Below are positions 935-19,008 of a stretch of DNA of 22,461 nt, piece by piece (positions within the stretch are counted from its first letter, which is position 1; every line of letters begins with the position of its first letter). The translations under genes were made by a program, and so were the position numbers. Source of the stretch: a virus; IMG/VR virus record IMGVR_UViG_3300031977_000073, positions 1 through 22,461 of that record, one strand, 5' to 3'. The notes below the pieces were generated by a model that ran no database searches, was not told where the DNA came from, and saw only the letters and a program-made list of their open reading frames with translations.

Positions 935-2365
935 TTACCTAGGTTTACGCGGGTCTTGTAGTGCAGCATATCGCTGTTTAAAATCTATAAGTTCTTGACC
1001 CTTTAAAGTGTTAATAGTTTTGTTGTACCACCAATCTTGTACTTTGTAAGCAATGTCCCGGCTAGGTACTGCAATCTCTTGCAAATACCTGTCGTAAGCT
1101 TGCATCAATTCGTCAACATTAGTGACTTTATCTAGACCGTAATCTTTGATAATTCTAGCTTTAGTACGACCACCAAACTCCAATCCAGCCATGTCTAAAA
1201 TTTTATGCAAAGCCATGGGGTCTTTTTGAGCAACGGTGTGCGTAATTTCACCCATGTCAAGCAGGTTTTTAATAACATTACCCGGATAAAGTTCGTATTT
1301 TTCTGGCCAAACAAAGAAGTTTACCAAATCATCTTTATTGCCTACACCCGTGTCAATTAGCTTTAACAGTGTATCGACAAAAGGTTTAGTTTCAGCTTTA
1401 GCCAAAACGTGATGCTGTTGAGCAGGTTTAGTGACATCATAAGGATCAACTCTACCAAACTCTTCTTCTAATTTACTAAGAACACCTCTTTGACCTGCAC
1501 GTTCTTGCCGATAGGCTTGAGACACCCGTAAATCAGTTAGATATGCTTCAGGGTTAGCTTCATCATAAGGGAAAGTTGACATAACACCTTTTTCGTGTTT
1601 GCCAATTTTTGCCAACGCTTTTTTCAAACGTTCAGCGTTTACTTCACCAGATGCATAAGCTGCTTTAAGGTCAGCTTTAACTTCTTCATAAATAGCACGC
1701 CTACGTTCAAACGTTTCAACAGCAGGTTTAAATTGAGGTGACTCTGCTGAACCAAGACCTGCTTTAGGTGAAGTCCATTCAGGTGAAGTAGTAGACATAA
1801 ACACGCTGCCACCTTGAATCCTAGGTTTAGATATAGGAGGCGTAAGTGCAGCACCAGCCACAGCGGGGGCCAAACCCGTAGGAGGTGTTATTACATCATC
1901 AGCTAAACCTTTAACAGCTGTTTTAACAGTTTGGCGTAAACCTTTGCTAGCTAATGCTGATGCACCACCAGTAGCTACGTCAGTTATCAGAAAAGGATCA
2001 GTTAAAGAAACAGGTAAGCCAGTTGCAGCGGCAATATTTTCTGCAGCTGTTTGTGGTAATTGTGCAACTTCAGTAATTTTTTGTTGAACAGGTTGAGGCG
2101 CAGATTGAAAAGCTAATGAAATGCCACCACCTATCGAACGCAATGTCGGACCAATTATCGGATCATTCTGATAAAAATCTGTAGCAGCTTGAACAAGCGG
2201 TTTAGTTATAGGTGAAACTAACCGATCAATTTGTTGTTGGGCTGGATTTAACTTACCTTGAACATAAAGTTTATCAAAACTTTCTTGAGATTGCCAGCCG
2301 TAGTTTTCACCAGCCCAACGTTTACCTGTTTTTCTATCTTCTAAACCAATCTCATAGTCGTTCAT
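935..2365 (-). CDS. Uncharacterised 476-aa protein with possible divergent HNH-like motif
   Basis: I do not recognise this as a named family. The N-terminal 210 residues are Ala/Pro/Thr-rich with hydrophobic stretches (for example residues 70-86 and 162-176) and read as poorly ordered. Residues 215-260 are charged and probably helical. Residues 315-390 are the most distinctive: a QQHH pair (H318, H319), then PGN (N363), KNLLDM (N367), TH (H376) and LH (H387). That order of His-His, Asn and His recalls degenerate HNH/beta-beta-alpha-metal nucleases, but the assignment is inference. The start ATG overlaps the HNH gene's stop by 4 nt (ATGA), and no Shine-Dalgarno is visible. It sits directly before terL. 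By eye it is more A/T-rich than the fibre genes. It could instead be a virion or packaging accessory protein. Confidence 0.85.
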   Translation of the reverse strand: MNDYEIGLEDRKTGKRWAGENYGWQSQESFDKLYVQGKLNPAQQQIDRLVSPITKPLVQAATDFYQNDPIIGPTLRSIGGGISLAFQSAPQPVQQKITEVAQLPQTAAENIAAATGLPVSLTDPFLITDVATGGASALASKGLRQTVKTAVKGLADDVITPPTGLAPAVAGAALTPPISKPRIQGGSVFMSTTSPEWTSPKAGLGSAESPQFKPAVETFERRRAIYEEVKADLKAAYASGEVNAERLKKALAKIGKHEKGVMSTFPYDEANPEAYLTDLRVSQAYRQERAGQRGVLSKLEEEFGRVDPYDVTKPAQQHHVLAKAETKPFVDTLLKLIDTGVGNKDDLVNFFVWPEKYELYPGNVIKNLLDMGEITHTVAQKDPMALHKILDMAGLEFGGRTKARIIKDYGLDKVTNVDELMQAYDRYLQEIAVPSRDIAYKVQDWWYNKTINTLKGQELIDFKQRYAALQDPRKPR

Positions 2366-2688
2366 TTGATGTGCGATAAAATAAGTTGTTCTCTAGGCGT
2401 AGTGCCAAAAGTCTGCCTCATCCAAGTGAGCCAGTTATTCGTTCCTTTGTTCTGATTACATTTCCTGCAGGATGGAACCAAATTTCGCGTGATCGTCTGT
2501 CCTCCATAAAAACGAGGTACAACATGATCAAGAGTAAGTTCGTGTAATTCATAAGTTTCTCCACAATAGACACATTGACAGTTGAAGTGTTCCTTAATGG
2601 CACGTCGCCATAGCCGTTTCGCTTCAGGGCTAGTCATGGTTATTAGATTTTGCAGGTAGTGATCAGGACTGGGGAGCAGCGGGGTCAT
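2362..2688 (-). CDS. HNH endonuclease
   Basis: A small DNA endonuclease of 108 residues. It has a CVYC knuckle (C39, C42), the catalytic segment LTLDHVVPRFYGG (D54, H55), and NLVPSCRKCNQNKG with N69, a second Cys pair (C74, C77) and N78 in the third catalytic position. This is the standard zinc-supported HNH layout. The gene overlaps the basic-protein gene upstream and the 476-aa gene downstream by 4 nt each (ATGA), so it is translated as part of the operon. HNH proteins beside terminase genes can assist cos cleavage in other phages, while free-standing ones in T7-like phages are often homing nucleases. The sequence does not decide between these roles. Confidence 0.93.
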   Translation of the reverse strand: MTPLLPSPDHYLQNLITMTSPEAKRLWRRAIKEHFNCQCVYCGETYELHELTLDHVVPRFYGGQTITRNLVPSCRKCNQNKGTNNWLTWMRQTFGTTPREQLILSHIK

Positions 2689-2924: not shown

Positions 2925-3153
2925 ACAATCTCCGCTGTACTAGTTCTGGATCAATAGTAGGCAAGACACTTGCCAGTTTGTCTAGTTGGTTACCCTCAAG
3001 GGCAACACCACTAATGTCGTTTTTGGCGAGCCAGTCACACGCAGCTTTAAGATCCTGCGTAGAGGCTTCACCGGATTTGATACGATTGAGGAACTCAGTA
3101 GTTACGAGATTGTGAAGCTCGTTAAACTGGTCCTCAGTAGCCTTTTTCTTCAT
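2908..3153 (-). CDS. terS: Terminase small subunit / DNA maturase A (gp18-like)
   Basis: Recognises phage DNA and loads the large terminase. The protein has 81 residues, against 89 for T7 gp18. It is predominantly helical: the charged MKKKATEDQFNELHNLVTTE opening is followed by FLNRIKSG and a second helical stretch ending in CDWLAKNDISG. This resembles the small maturases of cyanobacterial podoviruses, where ATEEQ, LIKRIKDG and FLKDNGI-like segments occur in the same order. The position between the fibre/lysis-type genes and terL agrees with T7. The start lies 20 nt inside the upstream exported-protein gene, and no clear Shine-Dalgarno is present. Identity rests on similarity by memory plus gene order. 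Confidence 0.8.
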   Translation of the reverse strand: MKKKATEDQFNELHNLVTTEFLNRIKSGEASTQDLKAACDWLAKNDISGVALEGNQLDKLASVLPTIDPELVQRRLYGPKV

Positions 3154-3784
3154 TTGTCAAAGACACAATAGGTACAATGTCGTGACACAATACCTCTACC
3201 CGAGATCCAGGTCGGAAAGTAAATCCAGCCTTCATGATCTCAGTACACTTCAAAGCTCTCACAAGCTCATAGTCCAACCGTAGCTTTTCTTCGTGTCGTC
3301 TAGCGATAGCTTTACACTGCTCAATCATCCCACCGTCAAGCGGTACAGAAAAGTTGAGCTGTGCACCGTAGTTATTATTACGGGTGTAGCCTTGAGGCAA
3401 CGTATCGTTCCCCATGTAAAATGGAGAGAACGTCATTGTTGTACCGTTACAAGAATTACCCCCAGTAAACTGCTGTCTACTAGGGGCACCGTTATTCTGG
3501 AATTGTACAGCTTGATTTGTTACGTTACCTGTAGCAGCCGCAATAGGTGATGCATTGTTACTAACTGTTGGTTCTTCTGCTTTAACCGGAGTTACTGCGA
3601 GAAGACAGAAAGCGAGGTAGTAGTAGAGGTAGTTTCGATGTCGCGGGTGATGTCGATTGTTTCGATGATTCCCGCTGCTCGTGTCACAGTCTCCAGTTGA
3701 AACTGTTCGCCAGCTGTGGTCACCGACCAAGTAGTTGAGGAATCGGTGATGTCCCCACTTGGGGTTACGTTTGTTCCAGACCAT
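3134..3784 (-). CDS. Exported protein with internal signal-peptide-like segment; start uncertain
   Basis: From the only ATG in frame (3784) this is 216 residues. Its first ~50 residues are read out of frame through the preceding Thr-rich gene and look non-native (His/Arg/Asn-rich). A typical signal-peptide core, LYYYLAFCLLAVTPVKA, follows at residues 53-69, with predicted cleavage before EE. The mature part is Asn/Gly-rich, then has a charged segment (EQCKAIARRHEEKLRLDYE, 154-172) and four Cys residues. I recall similar mature regions in other cyanophages, without known function. No ATG, GTG or TTG lies just ahead of the signal core; the nearest is TTG at 3730. The true start, or expression by frameshift from the upstream gene, is therefore unresolved. 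It sits where T7 carries lysis-related genes. Confidence 0.7.
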   Translation of the reverse strand: MVWNKRNPKWGHHRFLNYLVGDHSWRTVSTGDCDTSSGNHRNNRHHPRHRNYLYYYLAFCLLAVTPVKAEEPTVSNNASPIAAATGNVTNQAVQFQNNGAPSRQQFTGGNSCNGTTMTFSPFYMGNDTLPQGYTRNNNYGAQLNFSVPLDGGMIEQCKAIARRHEEKLRLDYELVRALKCTEIMKAGFTFRPGSRVEVLCHDIVPIVSLTNEEKGY

Positions 3785-3942
3785 GATGAGTATGCACCAC
3801 CGTAAACCTCAGTTGCAATGGTCTCAGTGATGGTTTGTGTGGTGGTAGTAGTGGATTGCATTGACCCCTGGGTAAACTGTGGGGTAACAGTTTGAGCTGC
3901 TGCAGGGGAAGCCAACAACAGCAGTAGAAGTAGTTTCTTCAT
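3592..3942 (-). CDS. Secreted Thr-rich phage protein
   Basis: 116 residues. A clear Sec signal peptide (MKKLLLLLLLASPAAA) is cut after AAA/AQT; there is no lipobox Cys. The mature protein is about one-third Thr/Ser. It ends with TVTRAAGIIETIDITRDIETT and a SLSVFSQ tail, a pattern I recognise from other cyanophage genomes, where it has no assigned role. GGAG lies 8 nt before the ATG, and the start overlaps the preceding gene by 4 nt (ATGA). Its 3' half overlaps the next exported gene in a different frame. It may act in the periplasm during lysis or on the virion surface; the sequence does not say which. Confidence 0.85.
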   Translation of the reverse strand: MKKLLLLLLLASPAAAQTVTPQFTQGSMQSTTTTTQTITETIATEVYGGAYSSWSGTNVTPSGDITDSSTTWSVTTAGEQFQLETVTRAAGIIETIDITRDIETTSTTTSLSVFSQ

Positions 3943-6056: not shown

Positions 6057-6674
6057 TTAAGCCTCCCTAATTAAAGCACCCCAAAATCCGCTCCGCATCC
6101 CAGCTCGGAAATTGAGAGTTTCAGAATCACTGTCAAAATAATAATAAGTTGCGTCAAAATAATCCGTACTGCCATTAGCGTAGAGAATACCTGAACAGTT
6201 TATACCGCTATAACCGCCATAACCTAGTCTTCCGTCTAAATTAGCTAACACAGTCGACCCATTTTTGCGGATGTTAATTCCGGTTTCAAGGTAATCACCG
6301 GCTGTATTTGCTACTGTTCCTACCGCCGCAAGGAAATAATACCCTGCAACAGTTGGTGTAAACCGGTAGGTTGACGTGTTATAACAATTGTCTGTATCAA
6401 ATTCTTCTTGATTAAATTGTATAACCGCTTCTGTGTTGTGACTAATGTCGTAATTAGCGGATCGGCTAGCATAAAATGCTGGACCATCAGCAGTCATGCC
6501 ACTTGTGACCGTCTGCCAACTCAACGTGCCACTACCATTCGTCTGCAGGTATTGACCGCTAGACCCCGCGCTAGTCGGCAGGGTCAGGGTAACGTCAGTT
6601 CCAGACGGACTAGTGTCAGCAGGAGCGTCGATAGATACGGAGCCGTTAGTGGATCCGTTTAGTTTAAGTGTCAT
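6057..6674 (-). CDS. Fibre protein with C1q/TNF-like C-terminal domain
   Basis: 205 residues in two parts. Residues 1-56 form the short beta-repeat shaft start seen in many cyanophage fibres: MTLKLNGSTNGSVSIDAPAD, then a TLTLPTSAGSSGQYLQTNG segment and SWQTV. Residues 64-205 look like a C1q jelly roll: AFYASRSANYDIS at the first strand, YRFTPTVAGYYFLAAVG in the centre (103-119), INIRKNGSTV, and FWGALI as the last strand. C1q-like heads are trimeric ligand-binding knobs, so this is probably a host-surface adhesin. AAGGAGG (6684-6690) lies 9 nt upstream and the start overlaps the S74 gene's TAA (TAATG). The C1q call is by eye. Confidence 0.85.
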   Translation of the reverse strand: MTLKLNGSTNGSVSIDAPADTSPSGTDVTLTLPTSAGSSGQYLQTNGSGTLSWQTVTSGMTADGPAFYASRSANYDISHNTEAVIQFNQEEFDTDNCYNTSTYRFTPTVAGYYFLAAVGTVANTAGDYLETGINIRKNGSTVLANLDGRLGYGGYSGINCSGILYANGSTDYFDATYYYFDSDSETLNFRAGMRSGFWGALIREA

Positions 6675-7777
6675 TAGTTAGTGCCTCCTTCGAGTTGGGC
6701 GACGCGGGTTTCTAAGGCTTCAATTTTGGAGATAGCCTCCTGCAATGCAGCAGTCAGCAAGGGCACCAGTTTGGATTGGTCGATGCCCTGATACTTAGGA
6801 ATCGTGTTGCCGTCTTCGTCCAGCTTGTTATCGCCAACGGAAACACCGCTTGGCAATTCTTCGCCTTCTTTCCAAACCTCTACTTCATCCTGTGTGCCTA
6901 CAACAGCCTCTGGGACGACTGCCTGTGCTTCATGAGCGAGGAAGCCGTCGACGGTTAATTCTGGATTAGCAATAAAATTGAACCGTCTGGGTGAAAGTTG
7001 TTTGACTCTGGTGATTGCGCCATCAAGGTCAACAACATTTTCTTTAAGCCTGTAATCAGACGACGTGGAATAAGTTGTATTTGAGCCGTTATGCGTAATT
7101 GCGCCAACATTTGTACCGGATGAGTTTTCCCAGTATCCGATATAACGAGTGCCGCCAGAACCTTGATCGCGAAATATCAAGGCTGAGTATGTTCCTGCAT
7201 TGCTGCTTAAACAAAGCGCCTCTCCGTTGCTGCCCCTTATTTCAACTTTTTCCCTATTCGTTCCTCTAATGCTGCTGGTGGTCCCGAAAAATGTTTGTCC
7301 GTTGCTCTTAATCCTCACCCGCTCCGTCGGGTTGGCGCTGCCGTCGTTCGTCCAAAAAGTTAAATAACCGGGATAGTTCTCGCTGCCACCAGCAGACGTG
7401 CTGTATCCCCTAATTAATGCACGATCTCCGCCATCGGTATCACAAAAATAAAGTGATCCCAGTCCCGTGTTGCTACCTGTTGTTGCTCCTGTGCCCAGAG
7501 TAATTCTGCCGTCGCCAGTGGACCCACTGGTGTTGCCTTCTACTTGAAGAAAGCTGTAAAAAGAACTCCGCGAACTTGTGCCAAATTGGCTAGACGTTCC
7601 AACCAACAGCCGTCCGCTGCTGTCAACCGTGGTGCGAGTGCTGCCGCCCGTGACAACGTTGATCGTATCCGTGCCAAACGAAATGCCGGTGTTTGTATCT
7701 GTCCCCTGAAGTGCAGGCGTGGTGGCAGAGCCATCCACACCCGAGATTCCAGAGGTTCCATTAATTTGAATACTCAT
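6674..7777 (-). CDS. Fibre/spike protein with S74 intramolecular chaperone domain
   Basis: 367 residues from the ATG at 7777; an in-frame TTG at 7795 would overlap the preceding gene and is not preferred. Residues 1-60 are a Gly/Thr-rich shaft (MSIQINGTSGISGVDGSATT). Residues 105-165 hold GSLYFCDTDGG and NPTERVRIKSNG, typical of cyanophage fibres. The C-terminus is a peptidase S74 chaperone: SDYRLKENV (S240, K245 as the self-cleavage dyad), FLAHEAQAVVPEAV (H282, E283) and a terminal coiled coil (about 344-363). By analogy with endosialidase fibres, the chaperone trimerises the shaft and cleaves itself off before S240. The start is 2 nt after the gp17-like TAA, with no Shine-Dalgarno. Confidence 0.92.
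   Translation of the reverse strand: MSIQINGTSGISGVDGSATTPALQGTDTNTGISFGTDTINVVTGGSTRTTVDSSGRLLVGTSSQFGTSSRSSFYSFLQVEGNTSGSTGDGRITLGTGATTGSNTGLGSLYFCDTDGGDRALIRGYSTSAGGSENYPGYLTFWTNDGSANPTERVRIKSNGQTFFGTTSSIRGTNREKVEIRGSNGEALCLSSNAGTYSALIFRDQGSGGTRYIGYWENSSGTNVGAITHNGSNTTYSTSSDYRLKENVVDLDGAITRVKQLSPRRFNFIANPELTVDGFLAHEAQAVVPEAVVGTQDEVEVWKEGEELPSGVSVGDNKLDEDGNTIPKYQGIDQSKLVPLLTAALQEAISKIEALETRVAQLEGGTN
6684..6690 (-). promoter_or_regulatory. Strong ribosome binding site of the C1q-like fibre gene
   Basis: AAGGAGG on the minus strand, 9 nt before the ATG at 6674 and inside the end of the S74 gene. Equivalent strong sites precede the starts at 6054 (GGGAGG, 6062-6067) and 5701 (AAGGAGG, 5711-5717). 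Confidence 0.75.
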
Positions 7778-7779
7778 AA

Positions 7780-10700
7780 TTAAACAATCGTCCAAGTAGA
7801 ACCAGAAGGAATAGTCACAGTGACGCCAGCGTCCACCGTGATCGGACCTGCACTGAGGCCGTTGGTGCCCGACGTAATCGTGTAGTTGGAACTAATAGTT
7901 TGGGACACCTCGTAGATAGCACCACCAGCGGATGCACCGCCACCAATGCTTCCCCAAGATGTACCGTCAAACCCTTCAAAACTGTCGGTATCAGTGTTAA
8001 ACCGGAGATGACCGGCGGAACCAGTCGGACGCTGTGCTTCAGTACCAGATGGCAGAGCAGCAGCACCAGTTGCAGAGGTTTGGTCTACAAAGTTAGTGTC
8101 AACGTAGTTTTTAGTTGCTGCATCCTGTGCACCGGTAGGGTCGGTAACACTGGTAATACGGCTAGTGCTTACGTCAACAGTGCCAGTACCGTTAGGATCA
8201 AGGGTGATGTTACCGTCAGTGGTAGACGTAGTAATAGTCCGTGCTTGAACGTCAAGGTTACCACCAAGTTGAGGCGTCGTATCATCGACAACATCACTTG
8301 TTGCTGCGGCTACTTGAGCATCAACATACGCCTTGGACGTTGCTTCAGAGCTTGCAGTAGGGGTAGTAGGAAGACCAGTAATCGTGCTACCGTTTACGTC
8401 AAGGTCACCGCCAAGTTGCGGAGTCGTATCCGACAACAAGTTAAAGGCAATAGAACCTTCAGGGATGGTAACAAAGCCAAGCTGTTGGTCTACTTCAAAG
8501 ATCGGGTCATCGGTTTGGTTACCGCCAATGCGGAACTTACCGTTGTGATCAGTAATAGCAGTCCAGACTTTACCGTTGTTAGATTCAGTAATTTGACGTG
8601 CTTCATTAGGCACACCACCGTTCTCAGGCAGTGCGGTGTAGTTAGTACCAGAGCCCACGTACTCCATCGTGTGACCGCTAGAAGCGATCATGGAACGGAG
8701 CCAGAACTGAACGTTATTAGTACCAGTATTGACTTGAACACTGAAACCAAGGTTATTACTACGGTTAGTAGGATCAGGACGACTAATCGTTACAATCCAA
8801 TCACCAGTGTAACCAGCAGGATCAGCGTCAAAAGTCGTTTGATCTTGAGGAACAACGTTAGTAATAGGATAGATCTCTGCGTCACTGTTCACCGACAGCA
8901 GCATGTTGCTAGCTGGACGGGTAGAAGTACCATGCCAGGAAGCATCAGCCACACCGTTGCTAACACGAATAGTAGTGTCGTTAACGTTAGCTTGGGTTAC
9001 GCAGTCAGCGGTAAAGATGTTGGTAGTAGAACGACCATCAGCAACCAAAGAACGATCACCAAAGTCAGTGGTAGAAGCAGCAAGGTTAGCCTGACCACCA
9101 TTCAGACACTTGATATGATAAGTGTTGAAGAAAGCGTAGCTACTAGTGATCTGGGTGTAACCGTTGTTAGTAACAAGGATACCAGGACCATTCAGTGCCA
9201 CGTGGGTGTAGCTGTCAGCCACCATAGACCGCAGGGGACTATCGGCGTGAGGAGTTGCACCGTTGACCAGCAGACCACCGCCAGTAGGAGCGGAGTCAGT
9301 GTCACCAGCTTGACCACCACGGGGACGGTGAGACCTCAGGTCATCGTTGTCAATCTCCGAGTCAGAGAAGTTAGTACAATTCTGGATGTAAGGAGACTTG
9401 GTAATAAATGCATTATTATAGAATGCAAAGTTCCAACCTTGATCAGTAGGCAGAACGGCGTCAAGCGTGTTACCAGTACCCGTACCAGCTTGCATACCGG
9501 TAAGCGTCAGGTTAGCAATGTATGAACCGCTGTTCAACTCAAACAGGTTGTTGAGTTCAGTTGCAGAGGTAGGATGTACAATACAGCTACGCAGTGCTTG
9601 ACCGATAACAGAAACGTTACGGCGTTTAATTTGCAGAGGTGCAGTTTCCTGGTAAGTACCAGCAGCAACTACAACAATCTGTCCGTCACCGTTACCTCCA
9701 ACAGTGATCTGAAGACCAGAACCGCTACCACCCAGGTTAGCAGCATCAGCCGACAGAATGTCACCGATGTTGTAATCCTCAAGGGTCGTGGTGCTGTTAA
9801 CAGTAACAGTAGTGACAACACCAGAGGCGTTGACAACGATGTCAGCAGTCAAACCAGTACCAACACCACCAGTCAGTGCAACAGTGTTGTAGGTACCTTC
9901 GACGTAACCAGAGCCACCATTAGTGACACTAATGTTAATCTCTGCGTTGATTTGGTTGATAGCAGCACGGATAGTCTGCTTAGGACGGCTAACACGGTGA
10001 CCGTCGTTAGCGTCGTCACCACCTGCTCCATCCACATAAACAACGTTAGGCTGTTCGGTAAACGTACCACCAGAGGTGATAGCAGACCAAGCCGAACCAT
10101 TCCAAACAGAAAGAGTCAGGTCGTTATCAACGTCAACCCACACACGACCTGTACCAATACCGGTACCAGACGGTGCAGAGTTTTGAACGTAGTTCTCGAA
10201 GCGACGGATAGCAGCAGATGAAGTGAAGACAGAATCATCATCACCAGCAAGATCATAGTCAGCATCTTGCTCAGATTGAGTAATGATGTCCTCAGCCTTG
10301 ATACGATCCAGGTCGATGTTAGCAAGACCAAGAGTGATCGTACCGTCACCATCATCGGTTACGGTGATACCAGTGCCATCGGTACCAATATCATTAGTGA
10401 TAGCAGTATCAATACGGTTATCAATCGCAGCAGTCGTGGCAATAGTATCGTCATTGTCAGGCCAAGTCTCCGAACTAGTAATAGTTTCATTTAGTTCATC
10501 TTGGAAACGAGCGTCAATGGAAGCCGTAGTTGCAACGTGATCATCATCACTTACCCAAGACTCTGAACTAGTAATGGTCTCGTTAGCTTCATCCTGGAAC
10601 CGTGCATCCAATGCAGCGGTTGTAGCAATCTTAGTGTCGCTGCTATCCCACGTGTCACTGGACTTTACAGTATCTGTGTAGTTGTTCCAATAATAGGTGT

Positions 10701-11128: not shown

Positions 11129-14100
11129 TTACTTACGAATTGACAGGGTGGAATCTAATACAACACCTTGCCTACTTGCAGCTTGTTTCAACTGTTCTTC
11201 CACTTGCAGTTGTGCAAACTTCTGCTGAAGACCAGGATCAAGACGCGCATAAGCTTGGTTCTCTGCGAACCTTTGAGCAGCACGAAGACGTTCGTGAATA
11301 CTATGCCACGTTGCTAGCTCAGGAGCTTTACCTTGACGGCGGAGTTGTTCAAAACTTTCCATAGATCTCCACTGTGTATTACTACGCATAACTTCCTGGA
11401 TACCAGTACGGAAAATACCGTCTTCACCCATAATACGCAGCAGTTCTGACCGCATCTGTTTAGGAATTTTTACACCATCTTTGGTTTTAAACAAAGTAGC
11501 AGTGGGATACTCAATTTTCTGTAGGAATTGTTCTTCTTCAGAAGGGGTATCGTGGATGGGGAATGGCATATAAGCATTCCATACACGTTGCAGGAAACCA
11601 TAGCTATTCACTTTCTTACCACTTACAGGACTGTAGATAAATGGATCTGCAGTCTTAGGATCAATTTCAGCAGCAAATCGGTTAAGATTCTTACCGTAGC
11701 TGTAAACGTCTTCGTCTACAATACGGAGACCGTCAGCAAAGATACGGCTCCACTCACCACGTTGAGAGGCGAGAGGACCAAGACCGTTCAGGAAACCAGC
11801 TGCCCAACGAGTGGCAGCAGAAGTATCTCCGCTAACAATTTGAAGCAAAGGACGAATACTAGACAAACCAGTGTTGTCGGTAGTAGCAGCACTAATAACA
11901 AAAGCAAACTTAGGTAGAATAGTTTCAATACCTTGTGCACCAATACTATCAAAATTATCAATAGTATTAACAGTAGATGCAATCCAGTCGGCTAAAACAC
12001 CCAAACCTTTGTAAGAGTAGTATCTACCATCTAAACCTTTAACACTACGAGGTTTCCAGCCTTGCTGTATACGTGCTCTTTGGATTTGAGGATCATAGTG
12101 CCCATCTCCAGTAATGCGATCATCACCGAACAACGACACAACACCCATCACTGCAGAGGTACCAATAGCTTTACGTCCCAAAGTTTCATACTTTAGATCG
12201 GTGATTTTGTTGACCTTAGCCAACGTCGTCATACTGGAAACATCGTAACCACGGCTAGACAGCAGGTCATTGACATACTGCTCATTACCAAGTAGCTGCT
12301 TAAGAGGAGTAAATGCTAGTTCATTAACATCCTTTTGGAAAGGTGCCCACGGAGCATATTTACCAAACATGGAGATCCTGTTAGCACCCGTAGTGGGGAA
12401 CATAAGGAACGGTTTCATAAATGCCATGTGCTGAGACAAAGCATTAGAACCATTTACCAAAGGAGAATCCAAGTTAAGTGCTAATTCGTTAGTACTCCAA
12501 CGGACAGCCTCATCTTTAATCAGACCGTCAGGTCCGAACATTTTGTTGTATTCTTTTTGAGCGATAGGAGCCAGGTTCTCTTTAGTAAGAGGTAGCCCAG
12601 ATTCCATCAGCTCATTCACAGCACGAGTGTAGGATTCAGAGTGAGCAATCATTGCACCAGTGAATCCGTCAGTTGCAATCAAACCATTAGGACCGAAACG
12701 AATCCTAGGATCTTTAGCAAGGGCATTCATTGTTTCAATCTGTTGAACAATGTATTGCATACCCCAACTGCCTTCAGCGGCTTGACTATCTGCTACTTCA
12801 CGTAGAAGCTCAAGCTCTTGCTCTTGCTGAAGCAACAAATCACGACGAGTAATTGCAGAAACAGAATCAGGGTTTTTAGAAGCTTTAGCAAAGATTTCAC
12901 CCATGTAAGGCAGAGACCTCCGCAAACTTTCGTTCATGGCACCATAAGCGATGTAGCCACGACGGATTGCATTGAAGTCACCGTGCATAACAGCACCGAT
13001 AAAGTGACTAGTAGGTTTAGAAATCAAACCACCGACGTTACCAAACAGTGCTTCAATCGGGGTCTTAAATGCTGACAGGTAAGAAGCGTAGATGTTAGAC
13101 CACATACCAGCCAGAAGCTTGTTTTGAACTTCAGGATTAGGATCAATAATCGCCTTACCCAAATTGGTCGTCATTGCAGAGATGTAGTCATTTAGCTGAC
13201 TAATACTACTAATTCGACCACCGGTCATCTCATAACCCATCAGGAATTGCTTCATCAGGTTAGGGTTGACCTCTGCAATAGCCCGGAGAGTAGTTCCAAA
13301 CTGCTCAGATTTTTGGAAGATAGCTTTAGCTACCTCATCTGCTTCACTAATAGTAGCAGCATTGTAGCCTGTAATGTTTGTAAAACCGTTTTGGATTTGT
13401 TTAAGGAGACCCACCTTACGGTGTTTGTAATAACTTGCAGAACCCTGAAGTTGTACAAGATATTGCATCAAATCAATAATTTTCTCTTGCCCAGGTTTAA
13501 CAGCAGAAGTACCTTCCATCAAACGAACGCCTTCGGACAAGTCAGACACACGACCTGACAAAGAACCTGCCAAAAGAGATTGCGCCCTGGAGACATCCAT
13601 TGCACTGACTTGCTCACCAAAATTACGGAGAGCTTTGGAGATCATACCAAACCCAGCTTCGTCCATAACTTGGACGCCAGCGTCATTGACTCTAAGGTAA
13701 GGTTGGATAATCTGCATAATGTCAGCACGACTCATGCGAGGATCAAACAAATCATGTGTCAGATCCATCGTGGCATCAATCTGATCGTCAAAGGTAACTT
13801 TCCAGCCAGCGTCACTTTCCATGCCAATACGGTCAGCCTGACGGAGTTGGTCTGCTAAACCAAGGACAATTTCGTCAACATTACCTTCACCACGCAAACC
13901 ATATTGCAAAGCAGGTTCAGAAATAATATTACCCAGGCGACCTTCAACAGTACCTAAATTACGTGCAATTCGAGCTTGGTCAATACTGGCACCAACGACG
14001 CCAAAGTCATCGACGGTACGGACTCCCAGTTCACCGTATTCAAACAAATCATGAACACCTCTGATAGGTTTATCAAGATCCATGCTTTGTGACATACCGT

Positions 14101-15112
14101 AGTAACCTACTTCATCCAAAGCGTCCTCTTGGCGTAGCATACCCAAGGTAACGGATTCTTCAACAGTCGTAGGTGCAGGAGGTTCGTTTGCTTTTAACCA
14201 TTGCTGTGAAGCTTCGGATTGAGCAACCATTCTGTTAGTTTTACGCAAAATCCCAGAAGTTTCTAGGAAAGCTTTACTAAGACGAACAGTACCTACTGCA
14301 AGCTCTAGAACAAGACCAGTCAGCAAATCTTCATAAATATTCTTTTTACGTTTTGCGTCTGGTTCCTCAGCGGTACCTAGCGTAGCAAGGTCATCAGGAA
14401 TAAAATCAAATTGCGAAGGAAGGGCAGCCTTAGCCATACCCAACAAGTTTTCACCTTCGTACTCACTGCTAACAGCACCAACACCAAGACCGGCAAGCGC
14501 CTCCACTCCACGATTTCCAAGGAATTTCATGAAAGGAGTATTACCCAGACTCCAACCAACACGTGATTGGGCAGCCAAACCACCAGCCCTAAGTACACCA
14601 GTGCCGGTCATTGTAGGCAAAACTACAGAGGATACTTGACGAATAGCTTGTGCTGATTCGTTTTCAAATTTAGTAAGTTTAGGCAGATTAACACCAGGAA
14701 TGATGTTAATCATGTCTACAGCAAAGTCTAAACCGCCTGTAGGAACAGACATAGCCAGTTCCCAAGCGTAGCGCGGATCAGTAGCAAAACCTTCTACATC
14801 ACTGCCAACGTTGAGACCGCCAAGCCTTCGCTTATTCCATTCTTTCCTACTCATGCCACGGGCTTCGTAGTAAGAAAAGTCTTTTGTAGGATCAAATTCT
14901 TCTTCCGCTTCCGTAGAAGCAGCGGGGGTTGGAGTTGATTCGGTTTCTCCCGTGGGAGCTGCAGCAGAAGGTTGCCCAGCCACTTGTTCAGCAGCTTGGG
15001 CATCCTCTAGTTCTGCTGCCCGTTGAAGAGCTTCTGCTTGTTTCTGACCTTCTTCAGTCAGTTGCAGTTCCTCTTCTTCTGACCGAAGTACTCCATTCGG
15101 ATCATAAGGCAT
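11129..15112 (-). CDS. Large internal core / ejection protein, gp16-like
   Basis: 1327 residues, close to T7 gp16 (1318). It is the last and largest of the three core genes and should form the periplasm- and membrane-spanning part of the DNA-ejection channel. Residues 1-75 are acidic and Gln/Ala/Thr-rich, probably unfolded. Residues 78-110 contain YYEARGMSRKEWNKRR. Hydrophobic stretches occur at 112-145 and 155-185. Residues from about 898 contain MKPFLMFPTTGANR, and around 995 there is DDRITGDGHYDP with GWKPRSV after it, a pattern shared by many large virion proteins. Unlike T7 gp16, no transglycosylase motif is visible at the N-terminus. The start is 2 nt after the gp15-like stop. The gp16 call rests on order, size and pattern. 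Confidence 0.88.
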   Translation of the reverse strand: MPYDPNGVLRSEEEELQLTEEGQKQAEALQRAAELEDAQAAEQVAGQPSAAAPTGETESTPTPAASTEAEEEFDPTKDFSYYEARGMSRKEWNKRRLGGLNVGSDVEGFATDPRYAWELAMSVPTGGLDFAVDMINIIPGVNLPKLTKFENESAQAIRQVSSVVLPTMTGTGVLRAGGLAAQSRVGWSLGNTPFMKFLGNRGVEALAGLGVGAVSSEYEGENLLGMAKAALPSQFDFIPDDLATLGTAEEPDAKRKKNIYEDLLTGLVLELAVGTVRLSKAFLETSGILRKTNRMVAQSEASQQWLKANEPPAPTTVEESVTLGMLRQEDALDEVGYYGMSQSMDLDKPIRGVHDLFEYGELGVRTVDDFGVVGASIDQARIARNLGTVEGRLGNIISEPALQYGLRGEGNVDEIVLGLADQLRQADRIGMESDAGWKVTFDDQIDATMDLTHDLFDPRMSRADIMQIIQPYLRVNDAGVQVMDEAGFGMISKALRNFGEQVSAMDVSRAQSLLAGSLSGRVSDLSEGVRLMEGTSAVKPGQEKIIDLMQYLVQLQGSASYYKHRKVGLLKQIQNGFTNITGYNAATISEADEVAKAIFQKSEQFGTTLRAIAEVNPNLMKQFLMGYEMTGGRISSISQLNDYISAMTTNLGKAIIDPNPEVQNKLLAGMWSNIYASYLSAFKTPIEALFGNVGGLISKPTSHFIGAVMHGDFNAIRRGYIAYGAMNESLRRSLPYMGEIFAKASKNPDSVSAITRRDLLLQQEQELELLREVADSQAAEGSWGMQYIVQQIETMNALAKDPRIRFGPNGLIATDGFTGAMIAHSESYTRAVNELMESGLPLTKENLAPIAQKEYNKMFGPDGLIKDEAVRWSTNELALNLDSPLVNGSNALSQHMAFMKPFLMFPTTGANRISMFGKYAPWAPFQKDVNELAFTPLKQLLGNEQYVNDLLSSRGYDVSSMTTLAKVNKITDLKYETLGRKAIGTSAVMGVVSLFGDDRITGDGHYDPQIQRARIQQGWKPRSVKGLDGRYYSYKGLGVLADWIASTVNTIDNFDSIGAQGIETILPKFAFVISAATTDNTGLSSIRPLLQIVSGDTSAATRWAAGFLNGLGPLASQRGEWSRIFADGLRIVDEDVYSYGKNLNRFAAEIDPKTADPFIYSPVSGKKVNSYGFLQRVWNAYMPFPIHDTPSEEEQFLQKIEYPTATLFKTKDGVKIPKQMRSELLRIMGEDGIFRTGIQEVMRSNTQWRSMESFEQLRRQGKAPELATWHSIHERLRAAQRFAENQAYARLDPGLQQKFAQLQVEEQLKQAASRQGVVLDSTLSIRK

Positions 15113-15114
15113 GA

Positions 15115-18100
15115 TTAGTTCAATCTGTAGTAAAGATTAGGTTTACCGTAGTGCTTTTCATATTCTTCTGGGGACATTACCCAGCTAAATGAACGTGCAG
15201 AACTACTGTTACTGATAATCATCCCATCATTACGGACAATGCCGATGTGTGGATAAGGAGGGTTACCATTATCTTGCATGATAACGATTGCTCCAGGAAC
15301 TGGTCCAGAAATCTGTTTTGCACTTGCATCAAGATTTGCTTTTACAGTTGGAACATATAGGTCATCACCCCAAGGTGGCTGGATTCCACTAGCTCGTAGT
15401 ACTTTGTTAATCGCATAGACACAAGCGTTTTCACCCTTATCTGGACCTTCGCTAGTAGTCATGCCTTCAAAGGTTGCAGCTATGTTAGCCGCTTGGAAAG
15501 GAGTACCAGGACGAGCAAGATTAGGGTTAGTTAACACACGAGCATCACCACTATATTTGTAGTAAGACTTAGCTACCCTACGCATATAGTTAATAGTCTC
15601 TGCAGGCAGAGGTTTACCGCCTTGCAAATGAGCCTGCATAATTTCAGGACTAGAATGTAAAGCACCTGCTGCAAGGATGGGATCCTTAAAGGCAGCGGTA
15701 TACACATTCATATATTCTGCAACGCCTTTGATGCTAGAATCAGCGTTGCTTAAATCAATGCCACGGGCACGTGCCATCTCTGGTGACAGCAGTCCAATAC
15801 CAGCCCGTCCAGATGGAAGTCTTGCATTAGGATTCCAGCCGGATTGTTCCAGAACAGCTGAAAGAATTGCGGGGGACTGGTTTAACTCTTTAGCGTGTAA
15901 CTCCACGCTGTCTCTGTGTTGAGCAGGAACAATGTGGCGGTTCCACTCAACAGCCAATTTACCGCCTTCATAACCATGGATTCGGGTAGATACTTCTGCG
16001 TTCAGGTATTGTGTCAGAAGTTTTTGAGCAGTTGGTGTGTAAGCACTAACACGTTGTAAGGACTCAGGCAGGTCTCCCAACTTGTCAGACATGCCAGCTA
16101 AAGTAGCTTGCTTGCGCAGAACAGCAGGCATTCCACCCTCAACACCTTCAGATGCTAGAACAAGTTTAACATTAGGGACATAGCCTGGTTTGTTAAAGTT
16201 TTCCAGTTCTTTGGTCAACTCAGCTTCAGTCAAGACACCAAACTTAGTGTTAATAAGTTGTTTACGTTTGCCAGCCTTGAGAGCGTCTTGGAATTGAATG
16301 GCTGCTTCTTTAGCTTCTTGAGAAGGGGTGAGGTTTTGGTCTTTTAGATTAGGGAAAGTGAACAAACCTGTAATAGGGTTGTATTCTCGATAGTACCTTC
16401 CATCAGGTTTTGTAGCATCTTTTGCCAATTTACCTTCCAAAATACCTGCTGCTTCAACTGAAGCCTTTTCAATAGCAGCTTGATCACCACCGTACTTAGT
16501 GGCCAAATCTTTTACAAGAGCGTCAAACTCACGTCCCAAGATTCGAGAAGCGTGTAGGGTATGGGAAGAGTCTTGAGGAAATTGTACAGTTGCAGAAGGT
16601 TTTTTAGTAAGTCTGGTCAGACCTTTGCGCTGCTCTTTAAAAACATCACTTTTATTAAAAGGGTTCTGCTTATCCAGTGCTGCCTGCAAACGGTTACCTT
16701 CTTCAGGATCGTAACCGAAGACTTCAGTGACAAGCGCTTGTGTTAGAATACCACGCTGTTCTGCATCTTTAGCTGCAAGTTTAAGTTGTTGGATGTATTG
16801 ACCACCTTGCAAACCTTGTCTAGCTCGTTTAATCCAGTCAGGCGGACCCTCTTGGTTATCGCTAAAAGACTCTTCAGCAGCAGCCAAAGTCTCTTCAGTT
16901 GGGTTTCGTTGGTACTCTTCCCACCATGCTTTACTCTCTTGTTTGTATTCAGCCTTATCGGTGTTAGCCTGGTTAGTTGCCCACTCACGCCTAGCGTCTT
17001 GCCTAGCGTTCATAATCTCTAGGTAGCGCCCCGCAAAATCTTTATCGTAAGTACCGTACTTACCTTTAACTGCACCTTCACCGTAAACATCAATATTTTT
17101 GACTTGAGCGTCACTTAATACAAATGTTCCGTCTGGGTTCATCAAAGTGGCTTGTTTTTTAAGCCAAGTATGAGCAGCGGGAGCACCCTCCAGTTTTTTA
17201 TGCATCCTAAAGGCTTCACCACCGTAGCGGTCCCAGTCTGTGTAAGAAGCATTATCCCACCTTTGCAACGTGTCTGCGTTCAGGTTTTTAGTCTGTTGAG
17301 ACGTAGCAATAGTAAGAGCATTATTGTGGACGACTGCCATTTCTTGGTAGGCACCACCCAGCATGTCATGGTTTTCAGGCCATTGGTTGGTTTTAATCCA
17401 CTTATCTGCAATGGCTTGTTGGACCACAGCAAGTTGACCAGGCTCACCTAGTGCTTGGCTGTAGGAAATTTCCTGACCATTTACAAGAATAGTGTTATCT
17501 GGATTTGCCAGTTGGTCATTATAGAAAGCACTATACTGACTTTTTGTTTGCTGCTGAATAGCGCCGTAGAAGAAACCAGCACGCTGCTTAGCACTCATGT
17601 TTAAGACACGAGCAATAGCATTAGGATCATAGCCTTTTTCTTTTGCCAAAGCTGCATTATTTTCTAGCAGCGAGGACAAGGAGTCCTGATCGTTTAGCTT
17701 AGCAAGAAACAGAAGTTTCTCTTGGGTCATAGCCCCGCCAGTAGCTAGACCTTCATACAGACCCTTTTTGTAATTCTCTTCGTCTTCTTCTTTGCCTAGT
17801 GCTTTAAATTTTTGACCAGCAGTAAAACTTAGGGTAGATAAATCTTTGAAAATTTTAGCAGTACCAGAGCTGGCTTGTTCAAAACGACGCTGCCTTTCAG
17901 CTTCGTCATATTGAATCTGCTTCTGCCGCTCAGTTTCATTGTTAGAAGCAATCTGGAAATTACGATCCAGAGCGTTTTGTGTGTAATTGGCATTGGACTG
18001 CATCTCACTAAGAGTCCGCTGCCTGTTCTCTAAATCAGCATTACGTTGAGCCTGCATATTCTGCAGGACACGGTTACCCTCCTCTTCTAATCGAGCAAGA

Positions 18101-18171
18101 TTGGCATTGCTGACTTGAACTGCATTAAAACCCCTAGCTTTTGTACCAGGGGTGTACTGTCGTCGTGCCAT
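15115..18171 (-). CDS. Internal core protein gp15-like with degenerate SLT domain and C-terminal Cys/His hydrolase
   Basis: 1018 residues; T7 gp15 is 747. Residues 1-130 are Gln/Asn/Glu-rich and helical (LEEEGNRVLQNMQAQRNADL). A long helical middle follows. Residues 756-866 follow the lytic-transglycosylase pattern (SPAILSAVLEQSGWNPNA, PSGRAGIG, LPAETINYMRRV), but the residue before the Ser is Q776 (CAA) instead of Glu, and the usual NAG motif reads LHSS (838-841). Residues 913-1018 look like an NlpC/P60 or CHAP hydrolase: NACVYAIN (C917), PGAIVIM, YPHIGIV (H975) and IISNSS (N988). It probably opens the cell wall during DNA ejection. The start is 3 nt after the gp14-like TAA. Confidence 0.9.
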   Translation of the reverse strand: MARRQYTPGTKARGFNAVQVSNANLARLEEEGNRVLQNMQAQRNADLENRQRTLSEMQSNANYTQNALDRNFQIASNNETERQKQIQYDEAERQRRFEQASSGTAKIFKDLSTLSFTAGQKFKALGKEEDEENYKKGLYEGLATGGAMTQEKLLFLAKLNDQDSLSSLLENNAALAKEKGYDPNAIARVLNMSAKQRAGFFYGAIQQQTKSQYSAFYNDQLANPDNTILVNGQEISYSQALGEPGQLAVVQQAIADKWIKTNQWPENHDMLGGAYQEMAVVHNNALTIATSQQTKNLNADTLQRWDNASYTDWDRYGGEAFRMHKKLEGAPAAHTWLKKQATLMNPDGTFVLSDAQVKNIDVYGEGAVKGKYGTYDKDFAGRYLEIMNARQDARREWATNQANTDKAEYKQESKAWWEEYQRNPTEETLAAAEESFSDNQEGPPDWIKRARQGLQGGQYIQQLKLAAKDAEQRGILTQALVTEVFGYDPEEGNRLQAALDKQNPFNKSDVFKEQRKGLTRLTKKPSATVQFPQDSSHTLHASRILGREFDALVKDLATKYGGDQAAIEKASVEAAGILEGKLAKDATKPDGRYYREYNPITGLFTFPNLKDQNLTPSQEAKEAAIQFQDALKAGKRKQLINTKFGVLTEAELTKELENFNKPGYVPNVKLVLASEGVEGGMPAVLRKQATLAGMSDKLGDLPESLQRVSAYTPTAQKLLTQYLNAEVSTRIHGYEGGKLAVEWNRHIVPAQHRDSVELHAKELNQSPAILSAVLEQSGWNPNARLPSGRAGIGLLSPEMARARGIDLSNADSSIKGVAEYMNVYTAAFKDPILAAGALHSSPEIMQAHLQGGKPLPAETINYMRRVAKSYYKYSGDARVLTNPNLARPGTPFQAANIAATFEGMTTSEGPDKGENACVYAINKVLRASGIQPPWGDDLYVPTVKANLDASAKQISGPVPGAIVIMQDNGNPPYPHIGIVRNDGMIISNSSSARSFSWVMSPEEYEKHYGKPNLYYRLN

Positions 18172-18174
18172 AGT

Positions 18175-19008
18175 TTAATCCATAAAAGCAGGAGCAGCCC
18201 CCATAAAGCCAGAAGCCATGCCACTAATAAGCGGCATAAGAGGGTTAGTTTTTTGAGCAGGAGGAACAGCTTCAGGCATAGCTACCATTGGTGCAACGAA
18301 GGTACGTGCAGGTGCCATAGTAGGTCTAACCAGTTCAGGCAACCGTTCAGGTTCAATCATAAGATTAGCTGCAGCTTGCATGTCGGCACCGTATCGTTGC
18401 AGACCAACATCACGCATACCACGATTATACTCACGCTCACCACTAACTAGACTTGCACTCAAAATAGCTGCGTTCCTACCTTGCTCTGCAAGAGTAGATT
18501 GAATAGCCTTGGTACGTGAGCCACCAGCTTGATTCAAAGAAGCCCTACCTTCAGCTTGAAGCTGTTCAATAAGAGCACCTTCCCCTTCAAACGCAGAAGA
18601 CGCTAACAATTCGTTAAACGTTGCCTGCTGTGACTCGTAAGCCATCCGGGCACCGATGTCGTTAAAAGTAATCTGCTGCTGATAATTATCAACAGAACCT
18701 TGATACTTTTTAGTTTCCTGAAGATAGCGGTAGTCTTGTAGTTCAGTGTCGTACTGCCACTGTTTAACAGCAGTGTCGAACTGGTATTGACGTGCAGCAA
18801 TGTAATCATTAACCTCAGCATTAAACCTTTCAAGGTTATATGCATTGATCATATTAGCTTTCTGCCGGGATGCTTCAAGAGCTTGGTTCCTGGCTTGAGC
18901 AGCTCTAGAGTTATTTGCGCTTGCTTGGAAGGCACCGACAACTCCGCCAATAAGAGATAGACCGCCGCCAATACCTCCAAGCAATTTAGATGTATCTGTT
19001 GCCGTCAT
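18175..19008 (-). CDS. Internal core protein, gp14-like
   Basis: 277 residues against 196 in T7 gp14. The N-terminus has a Gly-rich hydrophobic segment (LLGGIGGGLSLIGGVVGAF, 9-27), followed by long Gln/Ala/Asn-rich helices (RAAQARNQALEASRQ; QFDTAVKQWQYDTELQDYR) likely to coil. The C-terminus is Pro/Ala/Met-rich with LISGMASGFMGAAPAF. In T7 the gp14 protein inserts into the outer membrane as the first part of the ejection channel, and the hydrophobic N-terminus fits that role. The gene lies directly after TTPB as in T7, with AGGAGG (19017-19022) 8 nt upstream of the ATG. Confidence 0.88.
   Translation of the reverse strand: MTATDTSKLLGGIGGGLSLIGGVVGAFQASANNSRAAQARNQALEASRQKANMINAYNLERFNAEVNDYIAARQYQFDTAVKQWQYDTELQDYRYLQETKKYQGSVDNYQQQITFNDIGARMAYESQQATFNELLASSAFEGEGALIEQLQAEGRASLNQAGGSRTKAIQSTLAEQGRNAAILSASLVSGEREYNRGMRDVGLQRYGADMQAAANLMIEPERLPELVRPTMAPARTFVAPMVAMPEAVPPAQKTNPLMPLISGMASGFMGAAPAFMD

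Follow-up and report, generated by a model that had tools for sequence, protein, structure and literature searches.

What becomes of the wall-opening step of infection when an ejection protein no longer carries the catalytic residues of its transglycosylase domain is the question raised by one gene in IMGVR_UViG_3300031977_000073, a 22.5-kb IMG/VR virus record examined here over its full length of 22,461 nucleotides (the window). Gene order and best relatives place the window as a T7-like cyanophage, and the gene, flanked by gp14-like and gp16-like neighbours as in the T7-type gp15 ejection protein, holds the same position as in S-RIP1 and other cyanopodoviruses. The C-terminal quarter of its product would form a two-domain wall-opening module, in which the SLT (family-1 lytic transglycosylase) domain is likely a retained pseudo-enzyme and a Cys-His-Asn domain (C917, H975 and N988) is likely to do the wall cutting; the virus probably opens the host wall with this peptidase domain alone. 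The gene, its domains and the residues in question are as follows, in window coordinates.

15115-18171, minus strand: gp15-position ejection (internal virion) protein of 1018 amino acids, an open reading frame between the gp14-like and gp16-like genes
15544-15945, minus strand: degenerate SLT domain, residues 743-876, recognised by PF01464, the relatives' profile and Foldseek
15844-15849, minus strand: E775-Q776, where the catalytic Glu has been lost, in a helix one residue short compared with intact relatives
15790-15792, minus strand: L794, where G-V-M-Q-I-N has its invariant Gln
15649-15660, minus strand: L838-H839-S840-S841, in place of the Y-N-A-G of A-Y-N-A-G in the homologue alignment
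15118-15489, minus strand: NlpC/P60-CHAP-type Cys-His-Asn domain, residues 895-1018, with CHAP and NLPC_P60 matches in its family and hits to phrog_37890 and phrog_34252, 'endolysin'
15421-15423, minus strand: C917, predicted nucleophile
15247-15249, minus strand: H975, predicted catalytic His
15208-15210, minus strand: N988, predicted third polar residue

The SLT homology of residues ~743-876 is weak by sequence but real. Direct sequence searches with the full protein against Pfam and PDB matched neither domain, the PF01464 match of the SLT domain (14.9 bits, E 2.9e-4) lies under the Pfam gathering score of 21.3, and tblastn with the SLT region returned only weak phage SLT matches, the best ones compared all retaining the Glu. 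A profile built from intact relatives gives 25 bits over residues 743-876. The AlphaFold2 model of residues 725-1018, built from 39 sequences, has both domains well folded (mean predicted local distance difference test score 88) and shows a lysozyme-like SLT fold, for which Foldseek ranks Pseudomonas aeruginosa Slt first by E-value (1.2e-4). Chance resemblance was rejected, as fold, profile and the linker shared with relatives agree. The first-pass annotation of this DNA had described a transglycosylase-like domain that has degenerated and is followed by a Cys/His hydrolase-like domain, and had proposed structure prediction and a homologue alignment around Q776. Both analyses were carried out, and the description is borne out, the hydrolase belonging to the NlpC/P60-CHAP group and the other domain having lost its Glu and cleft motifs; the residue numbers given for E775, Q776, S777, C917, H975 and N988 are also exact, as is the CAA codon of Q776 at 15844-15846, next to S777.

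The losses are visible in an alignment of 41 homologous SLT rows besides the window and contig L003, a second virus species with ~80% nucleotide identity to the window; the counts cover the rows reaching each site. The catalytic Glu before Ser is present in all 35 homologues covering the site and absent in the window and L003, which carries the same residues as the window there. Among the matches listed, Glu is likewise kept (as EIES or DVES) in 21/21 contigs of the same gp15 type that cover the site. In the window, Leu has taken the place of the GVMQ Gln, which is found in 37/37 others and is lost in L003 too. The A-Y-N-A-G motif, with Tyr in 40 and both Asn and Gly in all 41 of the other rows, reads A-L-H-S-S in the window, Asn and Gly having become His and Ser, and L003 is without them too. 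Sequencing error was rejected, since the same residues occur in L003 and in contig L002, which belongs to the same species as the window (99.8% identity over 20.4 kb).

Compared with the intact relatives, the window lacks one residue in the stretch from the Pro at the helix start to the Ser that follows the Glu (SPSYIAALAEIESGFNPN against SPAILSAVLE-QSGWNPN), and this short catalytic helix indicates that a deletion was involved. In one gap placement Q776 stands opposite the Glu, implying a deletion plus a Glu-to-Gln change; in the other the Glu itself was deleted and Q776 stands opposite the preceding residue. The two are equivalent, and the choice of the former by alignment programs settles nothing. 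The earlier proposal of a Gln at the catalytic Glu position is thus right that the Glu is gone, while the substitution it named is one of two equivalent descriptions. Even that mildest description predicts loss of activity, because Slt (6fc4, 6fcq) and MltE (6ghy) carrying an E-to-Q change are labelled inactive mutants in the titles of their deposited structures.

The same annotation had allowed for E775 as a shifted catalytic Glu, and the domain might then still be an active glycosidase, with E775, displaced by the deletion, or a different acid as its catalytic residue. E775 is one position away from the lost site, is conserved in L003 and falls within the best conserved strip of the SLT domain, and the idea is structurally conceivable. 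However, under either gap placement E775 pairs with an acid of the intact relatives that precedes the catalytic Glu by two residues and is not itself catalytic (EIES, DVES). The modelled helix of the window stops at E775, at Pro+8, while that of the intact relative L029 runs to Ser38 and places its Glu37 at Pro+10, and the cleft Gln, Tyr-Asn and Gly are lost as well. A still active glycosidase is therefore improbable, and loss of transglycosylase activity, as judged from several lost motif positions, is strongly supported.

Whether the window represents an ancestral or a derived state was addressed through its relatives. An IMG/VR search with both domains found proteins of the same arrangement with an intact SLT (EIES, GVMQIN, AYNAG) scoring 50-80 bits with Pfam. 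These gp15-position proteins of uncultured T7-like cyanophages (L028, L029, L031, L032, L034, L089 and L098) resemble the window protein in their length of ~1000 amino acids, in the order of the two C-terminal domains and in a shared linker motif, L-N-P-x-x-x-R; their N-terminal part is alignable at ~24% identity and their Cys/His domain is 58-65% identical to that of the window. Their SLT, in contrast, retains Glu, Gln and AYNAG and shares no more than ~25-29% identity with that of the window. Given that relatives carry the same two domains with an intact SLT, the window version is derived. In a tree, the window and L003 are sister to the intact gp15 SLT domains (support 95/86), and their stem measures 1.58 changes per column where that of the intact group measures 0.62; a long-branch warning applies elsewhere in this tree, and the placement of the two is supported though not beyond doubt. 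Intact sequences lie on both sides, which makes loss the simpler reading. The sequences thus place the loss inside a pre-existing two-hydrolase protein. The suggestion that an ancestral muramidase was lost and replaced by a peptidase was rejected, since both domains coexist, with intact active sites, in the relatives.

Searching IMG/VR with window peptides recovered just two near-identical lineages, and it is the comparison of the window with L003 that bears on whether the altered domain is kept or decaying. The two proteins are 87% identical (DNA ~80%), and the frame is open in both species. Residues 743-806, the former active-site half, are 95% identical with a ratio of non-synonymous to synonymous substitution rates (dN/dS) of 0.12; residues 807-870, the second half, are 70% identical with a dN/dS of 0.33; the whole SLT domain gives 0.27 (bootstrap 0.15-0.48). 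These values point to constraint rather than free decay, and to judge from the two sequences the pseudo-SLT is fixed in two virus species. A functionless remnant heading for loss would agree with the fast divergence seen in the long stem and in the second half of the domain, but it is unlikely, as dN/dS is well under 1 throughout, the frame has stayed open in two species ~80% identical in DNA, and the SLT model is confident and compact. As a separate observation, the synonymous divergence (dS) between the window and L003 is uneven, at 0.83 for residues 1-735, 0.30 for residues 743-806 and 0.25 for the last domain, a pattern suggesting that the C-terminal module was exchanged recently.

The second domain shows the Cys, His and polar residue in the order typical of NlpC/P60 and CHAP enzymes, and none of C917, H975 and N988 varies across 30 divergent sequences of podovirus and myovirus proteins. 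At E<=0.1, 26/30 family members match CHAP and 17/30 match NLPC_P60 in Pfam (best 1.1e-7). The family profile finds 7cfl at E 0.0023, with H975 aligned to its His, and aligns the His of the HVGI motif of MepS more weakly. The family has 55 loci in IMG/VR viral contigs, and a search of 84,980 GTDB species genomes with its profile turned up no relative at the sensitivity and patterns used; it looks phage-confined. In cyanomyoviruses the Cys-His-Asn domain follows a GH104-like lysozyme (by eye), Phage_lysozyme2, Phage_lysozyme or a GPD-type hub. The hub 'endolysins' of ACG-2014e, S-CAM7 and S-SCSM2R share this domain at 37-45% identity and differ from the window protein in that it follows other lysozyme types or none, in large tail or baseplate proteins.

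The weak Pfam scores of this domain would fit a protein in which it too is inactive and another protein opens the wall. There is little to recommend this, as C, H and N are invariant across such divergent sequences and neither the window structural proteins nor the scanned genes of the same-species 29.6-kb contig, the genome being incomplete, include another recognised wall hydrolase. The gp16-like protein has no recognised hydrolase domain, Pfam matching none up to E 1.

The likely course of events, by gene position and by analogy with T7, is that the gp15 protein would be carried in the virion core and enter the periplasm on ejection, where its Cys-His-Asn domain, given the invariant triad and the superfamily, would cut peptide or amide bonds of the peptidoglycan. 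The SLT fold would be kept without glycan cleavage, its Glu having been lost by deletion with or without substitution and its Gln and Tyr-Asn-Gly changed, and it may serve as a glycan-holding part near the peptidase or as a structural or packing element. That the domain never touches the wall and acts only structurally, within the packaged core or in spooling the DNA, is a less likely but not negligible alternative, and the intact relatives suggest wall cutting as the original role. Several points weigh against a retained pseudo-enzyme beside an active peptidase: another acid, E775, may reach the SLT cleft; the fast divergence of residues 807-870 fits relaxed constraint there; third-position differences between the window and L003 are low in residues 751-800, and recent exchange may partly account for the conservation of that strip; and the CHAP score of the window's own domain, 20.4 bits, is under the gathering score of 26.

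The location of the hydrolases on gp15 is common in this group of phages. Most cyanopodovirus gp15-position proteins examined bear a wall hydrolase at the C-terminus: Hydrolase_2 (SleB) in S-SBP1 and S-RIP2, with scores no better than the cut-off in S-B28 and MedDCM-S45; Glucosaminidase with M23 in S-SRP01; Glucosaminidase in DSL-LC07; SLT with an M23-like domain in S-CBP4; and SLT_3 in S-CBP3. There is no Pfam match at this C-terminus in P-SSP2, P-SSP7, S-TIP37 or S-RIP1, and the S-TIP37 and S-RIP1 proteins show lambda-lysozyme-like motifs by eye. The first-pass annotation, which had the activity move from gp16 to another core protein, was therefore right that the hydrolase sits on gp15, but this is usual in cyanopodoviruses and not peculiar to the window phage. 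In the DSL-LC07 protein (L014:189-3182), the M23-type motifs (TGPHLD, HGIDYG, LHG) are permuted after the glucosaminidase domain.

Sequence comparison also indicates that wall hydrolases at the cyanophage gp15 C-terminus are exchanged as modules. L028 and L029 are 96% identical in the shared N-terminal part, 57% in the SLT and 98% in the Cys/His domain, and L087 matches L029 at 95% identity in the first of these parts and 88% in the second but ends in a different domain. The last domain of L087, like that of L088, L090, L094, L103, L105 and L108, is M23-like without the usual metal ligands and stands beside an intact SLT; the same holds for S-CBP4 (L012:1581-4685). In these domains HxGxD reads Q-P-G-(I/V/L)-D, the H-L-H-F-E strand reads I-A-S-I-D-F, and of the usual ligands only the HLA His is retained, a mirror image of the window. 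A tentative generalisation, less likely than not to be right, is that the two-hydrolase module of cyanopodovirus gp15 has repeatedly been cut to one live enzyme and one conserved dead partner, covering a dead SLT with a live NlpC-type peptidase in the window lineage and a live SLT with a ligand-less M23-like domain in the other contigs and S-CBP4.

Lysozyme-fold ejection domains, two-domain muramidase-peptidase enzymes, domain swapping in ejection proteins and pseudo-enzymes are each already known. The T7 core protein gp16, which is also ejected, has a family-1 transglycosylase fold too, with structural similarity (9jyy, 7k5c) to an intact relative of the window protein. In T7, however, the domain lies at the gp16 N-terminus (residues 1-156, E37) and is active, with no fused peptidase (PMC8954989). 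Mutants in this transglycosylase of T7 are only modestly impaired, most of all on cells that are entering stationary phase (PMC1796659); loss of glycan cutting would thus be tolerable with another hydrolase present. Lysozyme-like domains on gp15-type proteins, not on gp16 alone, are found in K1E and K1-5, whose gp15-like homologues (gp35) have lysozyme activity (PMC8954989), and in Pectobacterium phage PhiM1, whose octameric ejection protein has them lining a DNA groove (PMC11440229); the available portions of these two sources describe no NlpC/P60-CHAP partner and report no loss of catalytic residues.

With the two-domain model, Foldseek aligns 4hpe (Clostridioides difficile) and 4fdy (Staphylococcus aureus, NLP/P60 family) across both domains. 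These are cellular and not virion proteins, of what we take to be the CwlT-type lysozyme-plus-NlpC/P60 architecture. In the literature searched, no description was found of an ejection protein in which a fixed pseudo-transglycosylase precedes an intact NlpC/CHAP domain and whose relatives carry the intact module.

The remaining features of the window include the two genes adjoining the one under study.

18175-19008, minus strand: gp14-like internal virion protein, the upstream neighbour (phrog_15746 internal virion protein, E 1.2e-4)
11129-15112, minus strand: gp16-like internal virion protein (phrog_6651, 835 bits), 52% identical to its counterpart in Synechococcus phage S-RIP1

A free-standing HNH endonuclease gene (2362-2688, minus strand; PF14279, 1.6e-13) lies near the terminase gene. 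The genes at 3134-3784 and 3592-3942 (minus strand) overlap, the upstream one opening with a signal-peptide-like MKKLLLLLLLASPAAAQ; their sole Pfam label is DUF6322, which carries no function, and they are possibly a lysis pair. Adjoining the T7-type tail fibre gene, 6057-6674 and 6674-7795 (both minus strand) encode small virion-type proteins with C1q-like and Peptidase_S74 (intramolecular chaperone) domains.

Related phages with and without a functional transglycosylase site in the same module form a natural pair for a direct test, one that bears on what a virion needs for crossing the cyanobacterial wall and on whether a dead hydrolase fold can serve as a binding or structural part. If the tentative reading of one live enzyme with one dead partner were true across cyanopodoviruses, the dead domain would be kept to direct its live partner to the wall or to help it pack in the core.
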